Program-made: the position numbers and the translations under genes | Assembly (NCBI GenBank): GCA_035652535.1 | Contig: DASRDP010000109.1 | Span: 1 to 44,959, forward strand | DNA from: Chloroflexota bacterium | Lineage (GTDB): Bacteria > Chloroflexota > UBA6077 > SHYK01 | Reading direction: 5' to 3' | Length of the DNA: 44,959 bases | Part shown: positions 1,856 through 14,007 of the stretch, piece after piece | Layout: the number at the start of each line of letters is the position of its first letter | Position numbering within the stretch: position 1 is the stretch's first letter | Notes under the pieces: generated by a model | Databases searched by the model: none | What the model was told of the DNA's origin: nothing | What the model saw: the letters and a program-made list of their open reading frames with translations, nothing else

Positions 1856-2932
1856 CTACAGGCCGAATGCCATCGCCAGCCCGCCAGCCACCACGCCCGC
1901 GAGCGCGGTGAGGCCCGCGAGGGCTGCGAGGGCGCGGGGCGGGAACCCGTGCGACACCATCGCCAGCGATGGGAGGTTGAGGGGCGCAAGCGTGAGGAGC
2001 AGGGCCCCCGCCGGACCGGCGCCCAGGCCGTAGCTGCGCATGGTTTGGATGATGGGGATCTCAGCGCCGGTCGGGATCGGAAACGTCATGCCCGCGACGG
2101 CGAATCCGAGGATGACCAAGGGATTGTTCGCCCATTCGGGCGTAATCGCCGGGAAGAGGTACGCCCGCACGGCGCCGAGGATCAGGGTGAGGACGATCAA
2201 GACCGGCACGAGGAGGAGGGTCAGGCGCACGACCGTCGTGAGCCAGCGCAGCGCCCATGGGCCGGACTCCTCGCGGCTCGTGGCTGCGATGTCGGGATCT
2301 CCGGCGAAGGACGGAACGAGGCGACTCACCACGACCGCCGCGCCAGCGACGAGCGCTAGCCCGACGATGCCGCGAATCGCCGCCCATTGCCAGCCGAGGG
2401 CAAACGTGATCCAGGCCAACACGGCGAGATTGAGGGTCGGATTCGCGAGCCAGAATGCGACAGCCGAGCCCGCCGAGGCTCCTCGGCGCCGAAGTGCCAG
2501 CCCCACCGGGGCTGCGCAGCAGCTTCACATGAAGCCGGGGATGGCAAGAACGCCCCCGAGGAGCGACGTGGCGAGCTTGGATCGCCCGAGGACCCGGAGC
2601 AGCCAGTCGCGAGGGATGAGCGACTCAATGGTGGCAGCCAAGAGGATTCCCACGACGAGGGCCTGCCAGATCTTGTCCATGTACACGCGGGCATAATCGA
2701 CCGCGGTGGTGATGGAGGGCGGTGGCGCGGCGGCGTCCTTGCCGGACACGATGGACGAGCCGAGGGAATGGCTCACGAATACGTCGGCAGTCCGGGCGAC
2801 GTACGGCATCCACTTGACGTAAGCGAGCCCGACCACCGCGATGATCAGCAGGATCGAGAATCCCCGAAAATACTCGATGCGGCGGTCCGCCGCCGTTTCG
2901 ACCAGCTCGGGCGCCACGCTGTGTTGGTGCAT
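1856..2932 (-). CDS. Permease (ArsP/YraQ-like) with in-frame TGA, candidate selenoprotein
   Basis: A multi-pass permease of the predicted-permease/ArsP-like superfamily that is open in one frame from 2932 to 1856 except for a TGA at 2527-2525. Read through, it has 358 residues. The interruption falls after Ile-Pro-Gly-Phe-Met and before Ser-Cys-Cys-Ala-Ala-Pro-Val, followed by the LRRRGAS and ANPTLN family motifs. In my memory of homologues (unchecked) this place carries a Cys-rich Met-Cys-Thr-Cys-Cys type motif, so the TGA would be selenocysteine 136. A SECIS-like hairpin follows at 2518-2495. The ATG at 2932 is preferred over upstream starts because GGAGA lies 8 nt before it; the N-terminus begins MHQH. 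A LysR gene is divergent. Alternatives are a recent nonsense mutation or a sequencing error. Substrate unknown, probably a metal or metalloid. Confidence 0.8.
2495..2518 (-). promoter_or_regulatory. Candidate bacterial SECIS hairpin after the in-frame TGA
   Basis: On the minus strand, 17 nt after the TGA, a three-base loop GGU (2507-2505) is closed by a perfect 7-bp stem, CAGCCCC (2514-2508) with GGGGCTG (2504-2498). Three more pairs, TGC (2518-2516) with GCA (2497-2495), follow after one bulged G at 2515. Published bacterial SECIS rules ask for a loop 16-37 nt after UGA and a G among the first two loop bases; both hold. The E. coli fdhF element likewise has GGU at its loop start and a bulged base in the stem. 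The structure was drawn by eye, not folded by software. Confidence 0.6.
2525..2527 (-). other. In-frame TGA, proposed selenocysteine codon
   Basis: The only stop codon in the permease frame between 2932 and 1856. It replaces a codon in a cysteine-rich motif; the next codons are AGC TGC TGC (Ser-Cys-Cys). No insertion or deletion is needed to join the two halves, which argues against ordinary frameshift decay. Confidence 0.6.
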
Positions 2933-2985
2933 GGAAGTCTCCGAATACTGGGTTTGAGTGGAAATGCTGAAGCTGACCGACACGT

Positions 2986-3004
2986 ATGCTAAAGCGTGTG
3001 GCAT
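2986..3004. promoter_or_regulatory. LysR-type dyad in the permease/LysR divergent region
   Basis: ATGC at 2986-2989 and GCAT at 3001-3004 form an inverted repeat with an 11-base spacer, the layout of LysR-family (T-N11-A) boxes. ATGCTAAA occurs at 2986 and again at 3021, with a degenerate copy (ATGCTGAA) at 2964. The site lies between the permease start (2932) and the LysR start (3064), the usual place for a LysR regulator to control its own and the divergent gene. Confidence 0.45.
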
Positions 3005-3063
3005 CATTCGTTCAAGCGCTATGCTAAATCGTCATCGCCAGGCCCAGCGATCCGGATAACTCC

Positions 3064-3963
3064 GTGGACATTGCCGATCTCGAGTCCTTTCTCGCCCTGA
3101 GCCACCAGGGCAGCTTCACCCTCGCCGCGCGCGAGCGTGGCCTCACGCAGCCAGGCCTTAGCCGCCAGATTCAGCGGCTCGAGCGATCGATCGGGGCTCG
3201 CCTATTCGAGCGCGCGCCGGACGGCGTCGCCCTCACGCCCGCGGGAGAGCGGTTCCAGAGCTACGCTGAGGCGGCGGTGGCTGCGTACTGGGGTGTGCTC
3301 GAGGAGCTACATCGACAACCGGCCCCGCTGGAGGGCGAGCTGCGTCTCGCGGCCAGCACGACGCCGGCCGAATTCATGGTCCCGCAGATCATCGCCGACT
3401 TCACCTCGGCCTACCCTTCGGTTCAGGCGACGGTCTACACGGCGAACACCCAGCGCGTCGTGGACGAGGTCGCGGCCGGTCGGCGGGACCTCGGCCTGGT
3501 TGGCGCGCGAATTCGCCAGGCCGGCGTGCGTTTCGACCCGGTGGCGCGCGATGAGGTCGTCCTCGCGGTGCCGGCCCGTCACCCGTTCGCCAGCCAGGAG
3601 GAGATTCCCCTGGCTGCTCTGGCCGATCAGCCCTTCATCGATCGCGAGAACGGGTCCGGAACGATTCTGACCGTTCGCCGTGCCCTCGCAGACCGTGGCC
3701 TCGACCTGCCGCCGCTTCGCATTGTCATGACGCTGAGCACGACCCAGGCGATTGTCTCAGCGGTCCGCGCCGGCTTTGGTGTCGGCTTCGTTTCGGCTTG
3801 CGCGCTGCGCGATCCCGGACCGGGCGGGCCCGTGGTGAAGCGCCTCGCCGAAATCCCTATGCACCGGTCGATCTTTCTCGTTCGTTCGCGCCGGCGGCCG
3901 CTCTTGCCCGTGGGCAGGCGGTTCGCGGAGTTCGTGCTTGCCGGGGCGCGATTCGCGACGTGA
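3064..3963 (+). CDS. LysR-family transcriptional regulator
   Basis: A 299-residue LysR regulator with an N-terminal winged helix-turn-helix (about residues 1-60; the helix-turn-helix includes LAARERGLTQPGLSRQ and is followed by LERSIGARLFER). A periplasmic-binding-like effector domain spans about 88-295. An NGSGT in the effector domain resembles the CysL/CbbR branch. The start is a GTG at 3064. It is transcribed away from the candidate selenoprotein permease across a 131-bp gap with a LysR-type dyad, so that permease is the likeliest target. A LysR branch linked to selenium metabolism exists, but I cannot place this protein in it by eye. Confidence 0.92.
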   Translation: MDIADLESFLALSHQGSFTLAARERGLTQPGLSRQIQRLERSIGARLFERAPDGVALTPAGERFQSYAEAAVAAYWGVLEELHRQPAPLEGELRLAASTTPAEFMVPQIIADFTSAYPSVQATVYTANTQRVVDEVAAGRRDLGLVGARIRQAGVRFDPVARDEVVLAVPARHPFASQEEIPLAALADQPFIDRENGSGTILTVRRALADRGLDLPPLRIVMTLSTTQAIVSAVRAGFGVGFVSACALRDPGPGGPVVKRLAEIPMHRSIFLVRSRRRPLLPVGRRFAEFVLAGARFAT

Positions 3964-3973
3964 CGGTCCGTTC

Positions 3974-6427
<2,454 letters not shown>

Positions 6428-6591: not shown

Positions 6592-8178
6592 ATGGCCCTC
6601 ACACGCGCGACGGCGATGGGCCTCAACGGCGTTATCGCGGCGCCCCACTATCTCGCATCGGCGGCCGGCCTGCGCGTGTTGCAGGATGGCGGGAACGCGA
6701 TCGACGCGAGCGTCGCCGCCTGCGCGGTTCTTGGCGTCGTCTGGCCCTTCGCCTGCGGCATCGGCGGCGACATGTTCGTGGTGATCTGCGCCGCTGGCGC
6801 CGACCGACCGGTGGTTCTGAACGCGAGCGGACGGGCCGGGGCGAACGCCACGCCGGAATTCATTCGCGCGGCCGGCCACGACAACGCGCTTCCCAACAAG
6901 GGTCCGTTGAGCGTGGTGGTGCCGGGCTGCGTGGCCGGCTGGAACGCGGCGCTCGAGCGATATGGGACCCGCGATCTGGGATACCTGCTGCAACCCGCAA
7001 TCGCACTCGCCGAGGATGGATACCCGGTTGCTCCCCGGCTCGCAGACGCGATCCGTTCACAGGCGCGAAACCTCAACGAGCCGGCTCGAGAAACGTTCAT
7101 GCCGCGCGGCGCGCCGCCGCGCGTTGGGGCCGTGCAGCGAATGTCGGCGTACGCACGATCGCTTCGCGCCGTCGCGCGCGACGGCATTGGCGCGATGTAT
7201 GGCGGCCCAATCGGGGAAGCCATCGGCCAGCACGTCGCCTCGATCGGCGGACACCTGACGCCGGGCGACGTCGCGGCGCATCGGTGCGAATGGGTCGAGC
7301 CGGCCGCGCTGGATGCATTTGGCCATCGAATCTGCGTGGCGCCTCCCAATAGCCAGGCGATTTTGCACCTCATGGGCGCGGGGCTGCTCGACGCGTTCGA
7401 TCTCGGGGAGCCGCTGAGCTCGCGCGCGGCGCACCTCCAGGTTGAGGCGCTGAAGGTGACCTATCGGGACCGACCGAGGATCGCGGATCCCGCCTTCGTC
7501 CACGTGCCGCTCGCGGAGCTCCTTTCCGAGACGCATCTGACCGAGGGCCGATCCCTGGTGGACCCGCGCCGCGCCGCGCAGGCCCCGGCGGGCGCTCCCT
7601 CTGGGGATACGGTCTATCTCTGCGCGGCCGACCGCGACGGAAACATGGTCTCCATGATCCAGAGCCTCCGCGAGCCCTTCGGGTCCGGGGTGATGGTGCC
7701 GGGCGTGGGGATCATGCTGAACGACCGGGCCAAGGACTTCGGGATCGCTGATGGCGACCCGAATCAGATCGCGCCGGGGAAACGGCCGCGCCACAGCCTC
7801 ACCCCCGCCCTGGCCTTGCGGGACGGACGACCAGCGTTCGCCTATGGGACCAGTGGCGGCGACGGTCAGCCCTATACCGTCCTCCAGCTCCACTGCAATC
7901 TCCTGGCGTTTGGAATGGACCCGCAGGCGGCCCTCGACGCGCCCCGCTGGACCATCGAGCCCGCCGCGGCCGGGCCCGCGCGCGGCGGCATCCGGTTCGA
8001 ATCGCGCATCTCGCACGCGACGCTCGACGGGCTCGCGGCCATGGGCCACGACGTCGCTCCGATCGAGGAGTTCAGCGACGATTGCGGCCGCGCGGCTGTC
8101 GTTCAGATCGATGCGGAGCGCGGCATCCTACTGGGCGCGGCCGACCCACGGAGCGACGGCGTCGCCCTGGCGTGGTAG
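6592..8178 (+). CDS. Gamma-glutamyltransferase family protein
   Basis: A 528-residue Ntn-hydrolase of the gamma-glutamyltranspeptidase family, which is made as a proenzyme and cuts itself before a threonine. The likely nucleophile is Thr340 in GDTVYLCAADRDGN, followed by FGSGVMVPG and GIMLNDRAKDF, the family's substrate-pocket motifs. The N-terminal part has ASAAGLRVLQDGGNAIDAS and GIGGDMFVV. No signal peptide is visible, unlike classical periplasmic GGT; such cytoplasmic members often act on other gamma-glutamyl or acyl amides. ATG 6592 is preferred over in-frame codons upstream because of GGTGAG before it and alignment to the family start. It is divergent from lon. Confidence 0.9.
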   Translation: MALTRATAMGLNGVIAAPHYLASAAGLRVLQDGGNAIDASVAACAVLGVVWPFACGIGGDMFVVICAAGADRPVVLNASGRAGANATPEFIRAAGHDNALPNKGPLSVVVPGCVAGWNAALERYGTRDLGYLLQPAIALAEDGYPVAPRLADAIRSQARNLNEPARETFMPRGAPPRVGAVQRMSAYARSLRAVARDGIGAMYGGPIGEAIGQHVASIGGHLTPGDVAAHRCEWVEPAALDAFGHRICVAPPNSQAILHLMGAGLLDAFDLGEPLSSRAAHLQVEALKVTYRDRPRIADPAFVHVPLAELLSETHLTEGRSLVDPRRAAQAPAGAPSGDTVYLCAADRDGNMVSMIQSLREPFGSGVMVPGVGIMLNDRAKDFGIADGDPNQIAPGKRPRHSLTPALALRDGRPAFAYGTSGGDGQPYTVLQLHCNLLAFGMDPQAALDAPRWTIEPAAAGPARGGIRFESRISHATLDGLAAMGHDVAPIEEFSDDCGRAAVVQIDAERGILLGAADPRSDGVALAW

Positions 8179-8189
8179 GCGGGCCCCAC

Positions 8190-8245
8190 GCGTCCTTCGA
8201 CAAGCCCGTCCTGAGCGCCCTTCGACAGGGTCGGGGCCAACGGGT
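8190..8245. repeat. Intergenic CCTTCGACA-type repeat, degenerate copy
   Basis: The gap between the gamma-glutamyltransferase and cupin genes contains CCTTCGACAAGCCCGTCCTGAG followed at once by CCCTTCGACAGG and a decayed GGGCAAACGG end. The same unit occurs twice at 18950-19066. It looks like a dispersed intergenic palindromic repeat, not a gene. Confidence 0.6.
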
Positions 8246-8301
8246 TGGGGGGCGCAGGGCAAACGGGTCCCGGAGTCAGGACGAATAGTGAGCCCTCCCT
8301 C

Positions 8302-9387
8302 TCAGGCGGTCGCGTATTGCGGGCGCGGAAGCACCACCGTTGCGCCGTTCTTCGCGCATTCGCGCTCGAACAGGGCGTACACCTCAGGATCCTCGTCCTC
8401 GTAGTCGATCTGCCAGCCGCCCTCGCGCTCGCTGATCGTGCTGATGGGGAGGCCGTCCCGTCCCTCGTTGCCGCTGCGGTCGAGTGACCCGAGGCGCAGC
8501 GCGAGGTATGCCGCGGGGGTCGGCCCCGTGTTGAAGTGCTGGTGGTACTCCATCGCCTTCGGCGAGAGAACGGAGCCGTCCTTCCAGTCGATTTTTCGCG
8601 GCTTCTCGCCTTTGAACCACAGCAGGGAGTAGCCGATTCCGCTCAGGATGAGGACGTGCGCGCCGACGCCGTGCTTGTGGGCCTTCTTGTACGTGCCCGG
8701 GGGAAACTGGCTGACGTGGCACTCCATCTGGTTGCTGGCCAGCCGAAAGCGCATGTTCACGCCGCCCGCGCCGCGCTCGTGGTAGTCGTCCAGCTTGAAG
8801 TTTCGGAGGTCCGGCACGTAGTTGGTGCGCCACATGCGGATGCCGACGTGGGTTCCGGGGTCGGTGAAGTAGTTCTCCTCCGTGTTGTACCGGTCGGTGA
8901 ACACGTAGTCGTCGTTGAAGACGAAATCCGTGTTTCGGTACATGTTGATGACCATCGGCGCATTGGTCACTGCGTAGAAGCGCGCCGGCTTTTGGCCGTC
9001 GAGATTGAAATGCTGGTAATAGCAGTTGAGCGGCGGAGAGAACATACTGCCCCGCTGCCATTCGATGGTCTGCTTGGGTTTTCCCTTCTGCCAAAGCGTG
9101 GTGGCGCCCCGCCCATCCAGGACGAAGATGGTCTCTTCGTAGAGGTGGTGCTGGACCTCGGTCTGGCCGCCCGGCGCGATCTCGAGGACGTAGCCGTCGT
9201 CCTCCTCTTGGTCGGCCAGGTTGACGAATGCGCCCTTCTGCCCCGTTCGGGGCCAGGGCGCGAGGTCGAGCGTGTATAGATCGGTGACGTAGGAGCCGGT
9301 GTTGACCGGGATCCCCTCCTCCTTCTGCCAGAGCTGGTAGGGAGAGGGGCCGCGTCGCCCGACTCGTCCGTTTGTTTCTTCAGCCAT
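8302..9387 (-). CDS. Two-domain cupin (bicupin) protein
   Basis: A 361-residue protein with two cupin barrels. In the first, metal-ligand-like residues are His80, His81, Glu84/Glu85 and His126; in the second, His237, His239, His244 and the pair His282/His284. The layout resembles bicupin dioxygenases such as gentisate dioxygenase, but I cannot name the substrate. ATG 9387 is chosen because GAAGGGA sits 6 nt upstream and the sequence before it looks noncoding. It is the last gene of an apparent operon: SBP-fold protein (11729), Rieske oxygenase (10660), cupin (9387), all on the minus strand with short gaps. No signal peptide, so cytoplasmic. The stop lies beside a repeat-rich gap. Confidence 0.85.
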   Translation of the reverse strand: MAEETNGRVGRRGPSPYQLWQKEEGIPVNTGSYVTDLYTLDLAPWPRTGQKGAFVNLADQEEDDGYVLEIAPGGQTEVQHHLYEETIFVLDGRGATTLWQKGKPKQTIEWQRGSMFSPPLNCYYQHFNLDGQKPARFYAVTNAPMVINMYRNTDFVFNDDYVFTDRYNTEENYFTDPGTHVGIRMWRTNYVPDLRNFKLDDYHERGAGGVNMRFRLASNQMECHVSQFPPGTYKKAHKHGVGAHVLILSGIGYSLLWFKGEKPRKIDWKDGSVLSPKAMEYHQHFNTGPTPAAYLALRLGSLDRSGNEGRDGLPISTISEREGGWQIDYEDEDPEVYALFERECAKNGATVVLPRPQYATA

Positions 9388-9451
9388 CGTGGTCCCTTCT
9401 TCGTATCTGGCCAGCGCGAGCGATGCGCGACGCCGGCCGTGGATTGGTGCG

Positions 9452-10660
9452 TCAATAGTCTCCGGTCCGCGCGGCGGCGCGCGCAAATTCAGGTGGTGGT
9501 GGCGTCGCGCCCCGCCATCGCCCCAGATCGCGAATGGACTCCTCGAGGTTCGTGTCGACGATGGCATGGTCGGGATCGTGGTAGACGTTCATGGGATCCA
9601 GGCCGTTCTGCACCTTCTCGATCTCGCGGCGGAGCATCTGTCGCAGCATCGTAATGCCACGGTCGGAAGTCGCCAGGCGCTCGGCGGTGCGATCGGCGAT
9701 GGGGCCCTGCGTCTCCCACGCCATGTGGTCGCCGGCCTGGACGTCCGCGGTGATGTCGAACCTCGTGTTGGGGTGCAGGAGGCCCTCCGGCTTCTTATAG
9801 GAGGGCACGTAGCGCACCCGAATGTCCTCGTCGGGCTGGTCCACCTCGCTCCCATCGGGAGTTGGGTCGAACCCCACGAAGACGATGAAGGTGTGGGTAT
9901 CGTCGATGGGGACGCGGATCTGCGTGTTTTTCTGGTGTCGCAAGATGTTGGGGAAGAGGATTGGGTGCTGGTCGACGAGACCGTTCTTATACGTGCGCCG
10001 CTTCATGATGCCGTATGGCGTCTCGTAAAAGTCAAAGTGGTCGATGTCGTCGGTAAAGCCGCGGGTGACGCTCGGCGGCGTCCGGCCCTGGGTCGACGTC
10101 TCCTGATGCAGGATCGGGAGGTGGGCCGGATCGACGGAATTCTCCATCGCCTGGAACCAGTTGCAGTCGAGCTGCGGCTGCACGGTGATGCGGTGCGTGC
10201 CGTCCTTGCGCGCCCAAACGTCGTACTTGGTGATGGGCGGGACGGGCTCGGGGCCCATGTAGGTCCAGTAGAGGCCGAGCCACTTCTTGACCGGATATGC
10301 CCGCTGCTTGACGGTGAGGTAGAACCTGCTGTCCGCCGGCTCGGCGGGCGTTTCGAGACAATTCCCTTTCGAATCGTAGAGCCACCCGTGGTAGGCGCAG
10401 GCGATGCCGCGCTCCTCCACCCGACCATACAGGAGCGAGGCGCCGCGGTGAGCGCAATGGTCCGCGAGGAGACCCGCGTTTCCGCTCTTGTCGAGGAAGA
10501 GCACGAGGTCCTCGCCGAGAAGGCGAATGAACTTAGTGGGGCTCTCCGGCGTCAGCTCGCGCGCGACGCAGAACGGGAGCCAATATCGCCGGAATAGCTC
10601 CCCGGCCGGGGTACCCGGTCCGATCCTGGTCAGAAAATCATTCTCTTCCTTCGTCAGCAT
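9452..10660 (-). CDS. Rieske [2Fe-2S] aromatic ring oxygenase, alpha subunit
   Basis: A 402-residue oxygenase subunit of the phthalate-4,5-dioxygenase-like class. Rieske ligands are Cys69, His71, Cys88 and His91. The mononuclear iron site is Asn167 plus Asp177, His180 and His185 in DPAHLPILH. These enzymes add oxygen to aromatic rings or remove methyl groups, fed electrons by a reductase; no reductase or beta subunit is encoded nearby, so a distant or shared partner is required. An AAGGAG lies 8 nt before the ATG. It sits between the SBP-fold gene upstream (49 bp gap) and the cupin downstream (64 bp gap), so the three are probably cotranscribed. Substrate unknown. Confidence 0.92.
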   Translation of the reverse strand: MLTKEENDFLTRIGPGTPAGELFRRYWLPFCVARELTPESPTKFIRLLGEDLVLFLDKSGNAGLLADHCAHRGASLLYGRVEERGIACAYHGWLYDSKGNCLETPAEPADSRFYLTVKQRAYPVKKWLGLYWTYMGPEPVPPITKYDVWARKDGTHRITVQPQLDCNWFQAMENSVDPAHLPILHQETSTQGRTPPSVTRGFTDDIDHFDFYETPYGIMKRRTYKNGLVDQHPILFPNILRHQKNTQIRVPIDDTHTFIVFVGFDPTPDGSEVDQPDEDIRVRYVPSYKKPEGLLHPNTRFDITADVQAGDHMAWETQGPIADRTAERLATSDRGITMLRQMLRREIEKVQNGLDPMNVYHDPDHAIVDTNLEESIRDLGRWRGATPPPPEFARAAARTGDY

Positions 10661-10709
10661 GCGAACGACTCCTTTCGAGTCATGTGATCAGCCCGCGGCC
10701 CAGCCCCGC

Positions 10710-11729
10710 TCAGTCGCAGTCTTCGTCCTCGCCGTGACCATGGGCCAGCTCCCGCTGGATGTTGGCGATCACGCGGTCGTGGCCTCCGTAGAGGTGGTCC
10801 ACGTAGCCGGTTGCGTGGATGCTGCGCAACGTCTGCGTATCCCAGAGCTCCAGCGGGTTCACGGTCTTCGCTTCCGGATACACCATGCACGCCAGCTTGT
10901 GCACGTTGATGATGGCCTCGGCGCGGGGATACGGCTTGGTCTCGTACTCGGCGGCGTGCTCGTCGTACTGGGCCACCAGGCGGTCCATCTGGCCTTCGCG
11001 CATCGGCCCGACGGGTTCCTTCATCAACTCCAGGGTTTGCTCTTTCTTGGTCTTGAAGAAGTGGGTCGAGTCCACGAGGACCTTCATGATCCGGTCAGCG
11101 AAGTCATTCTCCTGCTGGAGGCGCGGCCACGTGGTGGTGAAGGTGATGCTGTGGACCATCGGCATGGGCGCGAGGCGGTGGACTTTGAGGCCGGCCGCCT
11201 CGGCGCGGTCCGCCCGGTTCGGATCGATGAAGCACGCTTCGGCCTTGCCGTCGCGCACCGCCTCGATGGCGTTGCCGACCGTATTGGGCAGGAGGAACTC
11301 GACGCCTTTCGTATCCACCCCTTGCAGCTCGAGGAGCAGGATCTTGTTACCTTCTCCGTGACCGGTGAATTTCCCGTTCAGGAAGAGGGGTTTGCCGACA
11401 ACGCGCTTCCCGTTCAGGTTACTCAAGCTCGCGATGGCGGGGTCCGTGGCGACCCACTGGTGCAGCCAGTTCTCCGTCTGCGCCAGGCACACCATCGGCT
11501 CGCCGCGCGCCAGGCGCATGTAGGGGGACACGTGGTTCCCGAAGATGAAGTCGATGCCGCCGTCGAGAAGCTGCTCCTCGGCGTCGAGCGGATCGGCGCT
11601 GAACCGATAGTCGCGCACGTCGATGCCGTGCTGCTTCCAGATCTCGGCCTTCTCCATGACGGTGAGGAGCGGAACCATCGACTCGGATCGGTAGATAAAA
11701 CGAACGGGGACGATCTTCTGCTGCGTCAT
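10710..11729 (-). CDS. NMT1/SBP-fold protein without signal peptide
   Basis: A 339-residue periplasmic-binding-fold protein of the NMT1/THI5-like or Pht5 type. Typical segments are VMEKAEIWKQHGIDV, GGIDFIFGNHVSPY, LNGKRVVGK and GKAEACFID. The N-terminus (MTQQKIVPVRFIYRSES) begins directly with the first beta-strand and has no signal peptide or lipobox, so it should stay in the cytoplasm. A known precedent for an SBP-fold enzyme is 4,5-dihydroxyphthalate decarboxylase, and this gene heads an operon with a Rieske oxygenase and a cupin. No ABC permease or ATPase gene is near. The C-terminal tail is His/Asp/Glu-rich (HGHGEDEDCD). GAAGGAG precedes the ATG. Function is inferred, not shown. Confidence 0.8.
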   Translation of the reverse strand: MTQQKIVPVRFIYRSESMVPLLTVMEKAEIWKQHGIDVRDYRFSADPLDAEEQLLDGGIDFIFGNHVSPYMRLARGEPMVCLAQTENWLHQWVATDPAIASLSNLNGKRVVGKPLFLNGKFTGHGEGNKILLLELQGVDTKGVEFLLPNTVGNAIEAVRDGKAEACFIDPNRADRAEAAGLKVHRLAPMPMVHSITFTTTWPRLQQENDFADRIMKVLVDSTHFFKTKKEQTLELMKEPVGPMREGQMDRLVAQYDEHAAEYETKPYPRAEAIINVHKLACMVYPEAKTVNPLELWDTQTLRSIHATGYVDHLYGGHDRVIANIQRELAHGHGEDEDCD

Positions 11730-11785
11730 GCGCGCGTCTCCTTCGGTTCATGCTTCGCAATCGCAATCATTCGTTCTAAGGTGGA

Positions 11786-11814
11786 ACCCTACTCGGGAAC
11801 CGCGGCGCTGTCAA
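11786..11814 (-). promoter_or_regulatory. Sigma70 promoter of the SBP-Rieske-cupin operon
   Basis: Minus strand: a perfect -35 TTGACA (11814-11809), 17-nt spacer, -10 TAGGGT (11791-11786). The start of transcription would be near 11779, about 50 nt before the ATG at 11729. Confidence 0.55.
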
Positions 11815-11837
11815 ATTTGCGGTGTGCGCGAACCTGA

Positions 11838-12300
11838 TCAGATTCGAGGGGGCGAATTTTCCCCCACGGGTCGTCGCCCGCAACGTACCGTGCCTCCAAG
11901 CTGGGGGAGCCAAAACGGGTCGAGGCAGGTCTCGGGCTGTGGTGTTAAATCCCGCGCAAGCCTAAACGGCCACATTGGTCGGATGTGGCCGATGTGCGTC
12001 TTGGCCGCCGGCGAGGCGCCCGCGCGGAAGCGCTCGCGCTCGTTCGGGAATTTCTCGACCAGCGCCGCGTTGCGCTCCGTGAACCTGTCCACCACGTCGA
12101 CGCGCGGGTCGCGATCACGCCGATCGCACGCTTGCCTATCCTACGGCTACGTCCGCCGCGGTCCGGCCATCACACGGGAGCGAAGTCGTCGCGGCGCCAG
12201 AGTCACGGCGCCACGAATTGCCAGGGCCGCCGCCCGGTGCCAAAATGGGCGGCAACACGGCCGGCTCGACCACCGACGCTCGAGTCAAGAAGGGGGAGCG
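11838..12300. other. Non-genic stretch with a possible minus-strand gene remnant
   Basis: No intact gene is recognised in these 463 bases. On the minus strand, about 12125-12000 reads DVVDRFTERNAALVEK then FPNERERFRAG with very GC-rich third codon positions, as real genes here have. Downstream the frame loses this character and ends at 11838 in unconvincing sequence. It may be a decayed gene end. I do not recognise the family. The lipoprotein gene's ribosome site (GGGGGAGCG) closes the interval. Confidence 0.3.
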
Positions 12301-14007
12301 ATGCCGAAGATGACGCGTCTCTCGACAATGTGGACCATCATCGCGCTCGGCGCCGTCGCGGCGTGCGGCGCGCCGACGGCCGCTCCCCGAACGGCGAGCG
12401 ACGTGGGCTCCCCCGGCTCGACCGAGAAGACGGTGAAGCGCGCCGTGACGATCGTGGAGACGCGCGAGCCGACGTCGCTGGAGCCCAGCCTGCAGCCCCA
12501 AAACCGTGAGTGGTCCGCCTTGTCGTCCGGATTTCTGGCCTACTTCAACCGCGACAGCAGCGAGCCCCAGCCCTATCTGGCTGAAGAGCTGCCCAGCGTC
12601 GAGAAGGGGACCTGGAAGCTGCTGCCGGACGGCCGGATGGAGACGACGTACACCATCAAGCGCAACGCGACCTGGCACGATGGCGAGCCCATTACCGCGA
12701 GGGATTGGGTCTTCGCGTATCAGGCACGAACTGCGCCCGACGTCCCCGCGCATAACGCCGTCGTCGAGAAGCGACTGGCCCAGGTGGTCGCGGTCGACGA
12801 CCACACGCTCTTCCTGGAATGGCGCGAGCCCTACATGTATGCGGGCTACACCCATCTGCCAGATTTCTCCCCGATGCCGCGGCACCGGTTGGAGGAGCAG
12901 TTCCTGCAGGACCGCGCTGGCTTCATCGACGGTCCGCAGTGGCGCGAAGAGTTCGTCGGGAGCGGGCCATATCGGGTCGTGAGCTGGGAGCCAGGCGTGG
13001 ATATTGTCTTCCGGGCCCACGAGGGGTTCGTGTTCGGGAAGCCGCGGATCGACGAGGTTCGCGTGCGCTTCATCGGCGATGCGAACACGATCGTCGCCAA
13101 CCTCCTGAGCGGGACGCTCGACGTGGCCTACTCCGGTAACATCGGGTTCTCGCAGGGCCAGGCCCTCGAGCAGGCGGGATGGAGCGGCAAGGTCACGTAC
13201 GTCGAGGGGAACCCGCGCTTTCTGGAGTTCCAGGGACGCGACTGGGGCGACACGGTCCAGGCCGTCTTCGACGCGCGCGTCCGCCGGGCCGCGCACTACG
13301 CCATCGACCGCACGTCCATCGTCGACGCGATCTATGCCGGCCGTGCGCCCGTCGCGTATTACTGGCTATCGCCCCGAGACCCGTCGTACGCGGCCGTCGA
13401 GCGCGCGGTCCCCAAGTATGACTATGATCCCGGGCGTGCCGAGGCCTTGTTGCGCGAGGCAGGCTGGACCAAAGGGACTGATGGTCGACTCCGAAACGGC
13501 GCCGGCCAGCCGCTCACGCTTCCGCTCACCAACCTGCCCGGCGAGGTCGAGCAGCTCGAAGCCGCCATCGTCGTCGACAACTGGAAGGCGGCCGGCTTCG
13601 CCAGCGACGTGCAACGCCTCTCTCCCCAGGAGTGGCGTGACAACGAGCTGCGAAGCAAGTTTCCCGCCGTGGCTTACAACCGCCGCAACCTCTCGTACGA
13701 CGATATGGTCTGGTTCAGCAGGAACGTCTCCCTCCCCGAGACTCGCTGGGGCGGGCAGAACCGCATCGGCTACGTCAACCCGCAGCTCGATGACCTCTGG
13801 GGCAAAGTGTTGGCCAGTGTCAACACGAGGGAGCGCGAGGGCTACCTCATCGATGCGATCCGCGTGATGATGGACGACGCGATGGTCGTATTGACCCACC
13901 TCCAGGCGGAGGTGCTGGCGTTCAACGCCGATCTCGTCGGCCCGTCGGAGCCGCCAGTCGAGAAGACCTCCCGCGTGTGGAACGTCTGGGAATGGGAGTG
14001 GCGGTGA
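12301..14007 (+). CDS. Oligopeptide/dipeptide ABC transporter substrate-binding lipoprotein
   Basis: A 568-residue family-5 extracellular solute-binding protein (OppA/DppA type). The N-terminus has a lipoprotein signal with cysteine at residue 22 in AVAAC, so it should be lipid-anchored outside the membrane. Typical features follow: TSLEPSLQPQ near the mature start, WHDGEPITARDWVFAY, GSGPYRVVSW and ARVRRAAHYAIDR. The ATG at 12301 directly precedes the signal peptide and has AGGGGGAG upstream, although the frame is open further back. No Opp/Dpp permease or ATPase genes are adjacent, so it is an orphan binding protein. An MFS gene converges on it 27 bp downstream. The ligand cannot be read from sequence. 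Confidence 0.92.
   Translation: MPKMTRLSTMWTIIALGAVAACGAPTAAPRTASDVGSPGSTEKTVKRAVTIVETREPTSLEPSLQPQNREWSALSSGFLAYFNRDSSEPQPYLAEELPSVEKGTWKLLPDGRMETTYTIKRNATWHDGEPITARDWVFAYQARTAPDVPAHNAVVEKRLAQVVAVDDHTLFLEWREPYMYAGYTHLPDFSPMPRHRLEEQFLQDRAGFIDGPQWREEFVGSGPYRVVSWEPGVDIVFRAHEGFVFGKPRIDEVRVRFIGDANTIVANLLSGTLDVAYSGNIGFSQGQALEQAGWSGKVTYVEGNPRFLEFQGRDWGDTVQAVFDARVRRAAHYAIDRTSIVDAIYAGRAPVAYYWLSPRDPSYAAVERAVPKYDYDPGRAEALLREAGWTKGTDGRLRNGAGQPLTLPLTNLPGEVEQLEAAIVVDNWKAAGFASDVQRLSPQEWRDNELRSKFPAVAYNRRNLSYDDMVWFSRNVSLPETRWGGQNRIGYVNPQLDDLWGKVLASVNTREREGYLIDAIRVMMDDAMVVLTHLQAEVLAFNADLVGPSEPPVEKTSRVWNVWEWEWR

Follow-up and report, generated by a model that had tools for sequence, protein, structure and literature searches.

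A YraQ-type permease of Chloroflexota with a very likely selenocysteine codon and relatives beside selenium genes

The permease gene described here raises two questions: whether the single TGA within its reading frame is decoded as selenocysteine (Sec), and what a membrane carrier with such a residue may transport. In the window (the whole stretch of 44,959 nucleotides from a Chloroflexota bacterium that was analysed), the first-pass annotation had described this frame as intact except for one TGA, and we found the same: the only internal TGA is codon 136, in the context IPGFM-TGA-SCCAAPV, and the gene, when read through, corrects the two gene fragments expected from automatic annotation. The read-through protein matches Pfam ArsP_1 (PF03773) over residues 87-350, with 92.7 bits versus a gathering cut-off of 32.3. 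Membership in the YraQ family was judged by full-length homology to YraQ and by the CxCC motif, and the protein shows both; the alignment with E. coli YraQ spans the full length at 41% identity and makes it a YraQ-type permease. Among plasmid records, tblastn returned YraQ of enterobacteria and Paenibacillus, with close relatives in Caballeronia. A phmmer search of the PDB with the permease sequence found no relative, and a fold search of the PDB with its AlphaFold model, which is of moderate quality (pLDDT 66, pTM 0.71), gave nothing significant; in this model, residue 136 is predicted to lie at the break between helices 120-129 and 137-149. The features of this locus and of the related loci discussed below are collected in Table 1.

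Table 1. Positions of the permease gene, its regulatory elements and related loci in other contigs and genomes
Feature	Sequence	Position	Strand	Remark
YraQ-type ArsP_1 permease with one predicted Sec codon	window	1856-2932	minus	358 aa when read through (frame 2932-1856)
TGA codon 136, predicted Sec, first Cys of the PGMM-C-[ST]CC motif	window	2525-2527	minus	homologue column Cys or TGA
SECIS-like hairpin TGC-g-CAGCCCC-GGU-GGGGCUG-GCA	window	2495-2518	minus	loop 2507-2505, 17 nt after the TGA
Second TAGCATA element	window	2985-2991	minus	
TAGCATA element in divergent promoter, possible LysR operator	window	3020-3026	minus	
LysR-type regulator, divergent from permease	window	3064-3963	plus	NF040786 222 bits versus cut-off 250
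selD(Sec)-senA-senB	L106 (G000:C130)	about 8930-12308		window genome
senB	L106 (G000:C130)	11355-12308		
In-frame TGA of senB	L106 (G000:C130)	11988-11990		context HWRV-TGA-RLIA
LysR, then senA-senB	L114 (G002:C274)	2013-5474		
Distinct ArsP_1 permease	L093 (G087:C14)	8131-9168		TGA in SV-TGA-SCTAIP
Fragmentary frame, TsuA/YeeE and selenium YedE models	L093 (G087:C14)	5636-5914		
selU/mnmH-yraQ of Caballeronia	L095	3717-6020		
selU/mnmH-yraQ of Caballeronia	L094	3750-about 6014		

The TGA had been placed inside a Cys-rich motif, and the homologues bear this out. In a 12-sequence alignment in which the TGA was written as Cys, residues 136, 138 and 139 are invariant Cys, and the codon-136 column holds TGC or TGT in all 15 distinct full-frame homologues without a stop, which comprise three that belong to the class, three that belong to further classes within the phylum, and homologues from Methylobacter, Gallionella, Bhargavaea, Caballeronia, Enterobacteriaceae and Paenibacillus. 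This permease subfamily is encoded in 9 of 400 genomes of the phylum, and three of the nine carry TGA at codon 136 with no further stop: the window genome (G000), G003, which belongs to the same family and whose permease is 59% identical, and G028, which belongs to another family of the class and whose permease is 49% identical, the TGA occupying the identical codon in both relatives. In the tree, Sec falls on at least two well-supported branches, and G024, the sister of G028, has Cys; Sec and Cys would thus exchange among close relatives, at the likely substrate site of a transporter. Past the TGA, the window gene and its G003 counterpart show 20, 12 and 41 differences at codon positions 1, 2 and 3, respectively (70 codons), a third-position bias of the kind that selection on a protein leaves behind. 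Two other matches proved not to be TGA genes of this kind: a G072 match with an apparent TGA was dropped, its genome being devoid of selA and its Pfam match of any stop, and Caballeronia, suspected of a TGA since no gene is listed there, has Cys in its sequence.

The hairpin that follows the TGA has the geometry given in the first-pass annotation, with a 3-nt GGU loop and a 7-bp stem plus 3 bp past a bulged G (10 bp with the bulge), and its minimum free energy is -22.4 kcal/mol for 43 nt. As set out in PMC13188914, the bacterial SECIS (bSECIS) model comprises a loop of 3-9 nt with a G in the first two positions, 16-37 nt from the UGA, a stem of 4-16 bp and a minimum free energy of at most -7.5, and the window hairpin lies within every one of these limits. 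It had also been argued that chance would not place a stop at a Cys position and such a hairpin behind it. The first half of this argument holds, as a TGA at an invariant Cys that recurs at the identical codon in two relatives exceeds chance, but the second half does not: the hairpin is thermodynamically unexceptional against shuffles (z = -1.3 to -1.6), and when the gene was recoded synonymously with weights from the codon usage of the genome, an equal or better SECIS-like stem appeared anywhere in the allowed spacing in 19% of recodings (1.2% at spacing 17), so that in GC-rich DNA the hairpin alone is weak evidence. Stronger evidence is provided by the register shared among the three TGA genes. 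The G003 hairpin, CAGCGCC-GGU-GGCGCUG, has the same spacing of 17 and differs in one C-G pair that has become G-C, a compensated pair that arose via one synonymous and one non-synonymous change; the stem in G028 is 6 bp long, again at spacing 17. By synonymous recoding, a same-register hairpin in all three genes has a joint rate of 1e-4 (1/10,000), a figure that treats the three genes as independent and is overstated for relatives; among 455 Cys triplets, not one matches the trio.

All four of selA, selB, selC and selD, whose presence in the same genome had been proposed as a check, are found in the window genome: selA scores 558 bits, selB lies above its cut-off, selC is a tRNA-Sec with anticodon TCA (UCA; 69.5 bits), and selD has a Sec-type TGA of its own (CSG-TGA-ASKIG), accompanied by a similar hairpin whose loop starts with G. 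The other TGA genomes (G003, G028 and also G087) all have selA; it is likewise present in G009, G011 and G024, whose permeases carry Cys, which indicates that the machinery permits Sec and does not predict it. Taken together, the invariant Cys column, the TGA in relatives, the Sec machinery and the shared-register hairpin make it very likely, as judged from sequence, that UGA codon 136 is decoded as Sec and that this YraQ-type permease is a real selenoprotein; the earlier reading of the gene as a Sec-containing permease is upheld both by the Cys/TGA column and by the set of sel genes. SelB and tRNA-Sec would decode the codon at the hairpin 3' of it, and Sec would take the place of the first Cys in the conserved C-x-C-C motif, turning the site into U-S-C-C.

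Two other readings of the TGA were weighed against Sec. The UGA could be read through with insertion of Trp or Cys under a changed code, or it could serve as a switch under selenium control, with a truncated protein as the normal product, and an in-frame UGA together with Sec machinery would indeed also permit selenium-dependent control of the protein level; however, TGA is the commonest stop in the window (23 of 34 predicted frames), so that a changed code is rejected, and the Cys at the same column elsewhere favours a functional Sec; we consider this pair of explanations very improbable. Even less credible is a true stop, in a decaying pseudogene or through a sequencing or assembly error, since, although the assembly has draft status (168 contigs, 4.6% contamination) and a TGA resembling a nonsense mutation or error interrupts the senB frame in this genome, the permease TGA stands at the identical codon in three separate genomes on two branches, always in the Cys column, which makes a base-calling error very unlikely, none of the three genes has another stop, and the divergence past the TGA is biased as described above. 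The senB TGA itself, at a column that is Arg in the G002 protein and with no SECIS-like hairpin there, is probably a nonsense mutation or a sequence error and makes an instructive comparison with the TGA of the permease.

A distinct ArsP_1 permease of Sec type was observed in G087. Its TGA is followed 20 nt downstream by an 8-bp hairpin, it comes closer to the SO_0444 model, at 114 bits but short of that model's cut-off, and its neighbours, an ArsR regulator and a MerB-like gene, point to metals or organometals. On the same contig, a fragmentary frame with matches to the TsuA/YeeE and selenium YedE models may represent either a disrupted frame or a further YeeE gene of Sec type.

The divergent arrangement of LysR and permease is conserved in the window, G003, G028 and G024. 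None of these regulators reaches the cut-off of 250 bits of NF040786, the model of selenium metabolism-associated LysR proteins (219-237 bits in G000, G028 and G024; 211-214 in G003), and each is the best NF040786 match of its own genome; G009 has a LysR above this cut-off, with no visible selenium context. The region between LysR and permease in the window holds the two TAGCATA elements at a distance of 35 bp, TTTAGCAT elements are found in the divergent promoter of all three Sec permeases (window, G003 and G028), and the corresponding place in G028 holds a perfect palindrome, TATGCTA-ctt-TAGCATA. The divergent LysR probably controls the permease.

Neighbouring genes were called by a simple frame picker, with family models for selected genes, and they are given as examples rather than as an all-genome count. 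In the window, the neighbours besides LysR encode a universal stress protein, a 294-aa protein and Lon and give no pointer to selenium. The gene order in G003 is senA-LysR-Sec-permease-egtB-selD(Sec)-egtD, with senA (selenoneine synthase) at 485 bits versus a cut-off of 420. Selenoneine gene sets were also seen elsewhere in the lineage, as selD(Sec)-senA-senB on another contig of the window genome, where SelD, SenA and SenB all score above their curated cut-offs, and as LysR-senA-senB in G002. The G002 LysR is of the same type and stands divergent to a PhnCD-like ABC transporter, the binding protein of which also resembles TIGR04553 (putative selenate; 154 bits, below the cut-off); no such YraQ-type permease was found in G002. 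Across the 33 genomes scanned, SenA was above its cut-off in three, two of which have Sec-permeases, and it was absent from G028 despite the Sec permease of that genome. As for the Cys versions, yraQ of Caballeronia lies directly downstream of selU/mnmH (545 bits) on the same strand, an arrangement suggesting that the usual Cys form, too, has a role in selenium, the Cys permease of G024 adjoins cysN and cysD, and that of Methylobacter lies near cysH; for the Cys homologues of G208, G394, G011 and E. coli, the stretches seen contained no selenium neighbour.

From these neighbours in related genomes (senA, SelD, EgtB and EgtD; selU; cysDN; cysH), we infer a selenium or sulfur species as the cargo, a reading that we favour tentatively and that falls a little short of probable. 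The permease would move such a species, or a soft thiophilic adduct, through the membrane, and the selenol and thiols of U-S-C-C would bind the substrate. A narrower proposal, toward which we are more reserved, is that the Sec-YraQ permease may be a dedicated selenium transporter under a selenium-responsive LysR, serving either to bring in selenium from an inorganic or small organic source or to export excess selenium or selenoneine. Such a transporter would fill the slot that is taken in G002 by the PhnCD/selenate-like ABC transporter beside the same LysR type, and selenium availability would set its amount through UGA decoding.

The cargo, though not the Sec residue, could also be accounted for by a role in detoxifying soft metals or metalloids through efflux (trivalent organoarsenicals, Hg or Cu/Zn), as for the ArsP and SO_0444 relatives, with Sec strengthening the metal site and with the selenium gene neighbours being incidental. 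ArsP_1 membership and weak matches to the SO_0444 and SaoE models are in line with such a role, as are the ArsR regulator and MerB-like gene beside the Sec relative in G087, the ArsR that adjoins the Cys version in G168 (L105) and, according to PMC13188914, the implication of most known Sec transporters in metal resistance. However, the window permease scores far under the curated cut-offs of the SO_0444 Cu/Zn efflux model (NF033936; 54 bits, cut-off 300) and the SaoE model (NF040736; 33 bits, cut-off 325), in none of the window, G003, G028 and G024 was a metal-resistance gene recognised beside the permease, and the neighbours that were found are a LysR nearest the selenium type and selenium/sulfur genes. 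We regard metal or organometal efflux as a serious rival function, somewhat less likely than the selenium/sulfur cargo that we favour. The metal or metalloid site suggested in the first-pass annotation is possible too, but selenium/sulfur chemistry is indicated at least equally by the gene context.

A membrane carrier with Sec had been put forward as a new functional class, and this claim is not supported. A May 2026 catalogue (PMC13188914) already lists Sec-containing MerT, E1-E2 ATPase, YeeE/YedE, SaoP and SO_0444 Cu/Zn efflux proteins, the last of which (NF033936, motif UxC) belongs to the ArsP_1 superfamily, so that Sec in a membrane carrier, even one of this superfamily, is known. In the passages of the catalogue consulted we found no selenoprotein of the YraQ subfamily, and a search of the openly available literature returned no paper linking YraQ or COG0701 with selenium. 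What appears to be new is Sec in the YraQ subfamily together with its selenium gene context, which adds this subfamily to the catalogue of selenoproteins. No dedicated selenium transporter was known in any organism in 2024 (PMC11097638), and no specific high-affinity selenium system in prokaryotes is known according to PMC13188914 (2026); the Sec permease in the selenoneine/SelD cluster of G003 and the Cys version in an apparent selU operon of Caballeronia make this family a concrete selenium-transporter candidate.

Among known systems, the YraQ permeases (for example E. coli YraQ) align with the window permease over the full length at 41-59% identity and share the motifs PGMM-C-[ST]CC-AAP and FxIPT-x-x-E-[IV]P; they differ in that the first Cys of the former motif is TGA in the window gene and two relatives, and in that the window clade has a conserved divergent LysR. 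The SO_0444 Sec transporter belongs to the same Pfam superfamily, and its Sec (WP_014809615.1) probably sits at the homologous Cys-x-Cys, to judge from the UxC motif, whereas the window permease has U-S-C-C rather than U-x-C, another gene context and 54 bits versus 300; the Sec relative in G087 is nearer to that model (114 bits) and has V-U-SCT. The Sao system (SaoE, SaoP, SaoB and SaoC) is similar in being Sec-rich, in its ArsP_1-type SaoE and in its proposed organometal chemistry, and it differs in the SaoE score (33 versus 325) and in its partner genes, none of which was recognised in the neighbourhoods examined. The YedE/YeeE selenium/thiosulfate candidates are likewise carriers tied to selenium by context, some with Sec, according to PMC13188914 and PMC5322559, but they form an unrelated family, to which the window permease had no match in Pfam or NCBIfam. 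Finally, the selenoneine cluster has been described as SenA, SenB and SenC only, with no permease as part of it (PMC10891094); the likeness to SenABC clusters lies in the SenA, SenB and SelD encoded in the window genome itself and in the SenA gene that stands beside the LysR/Sec-permease pair in G003.
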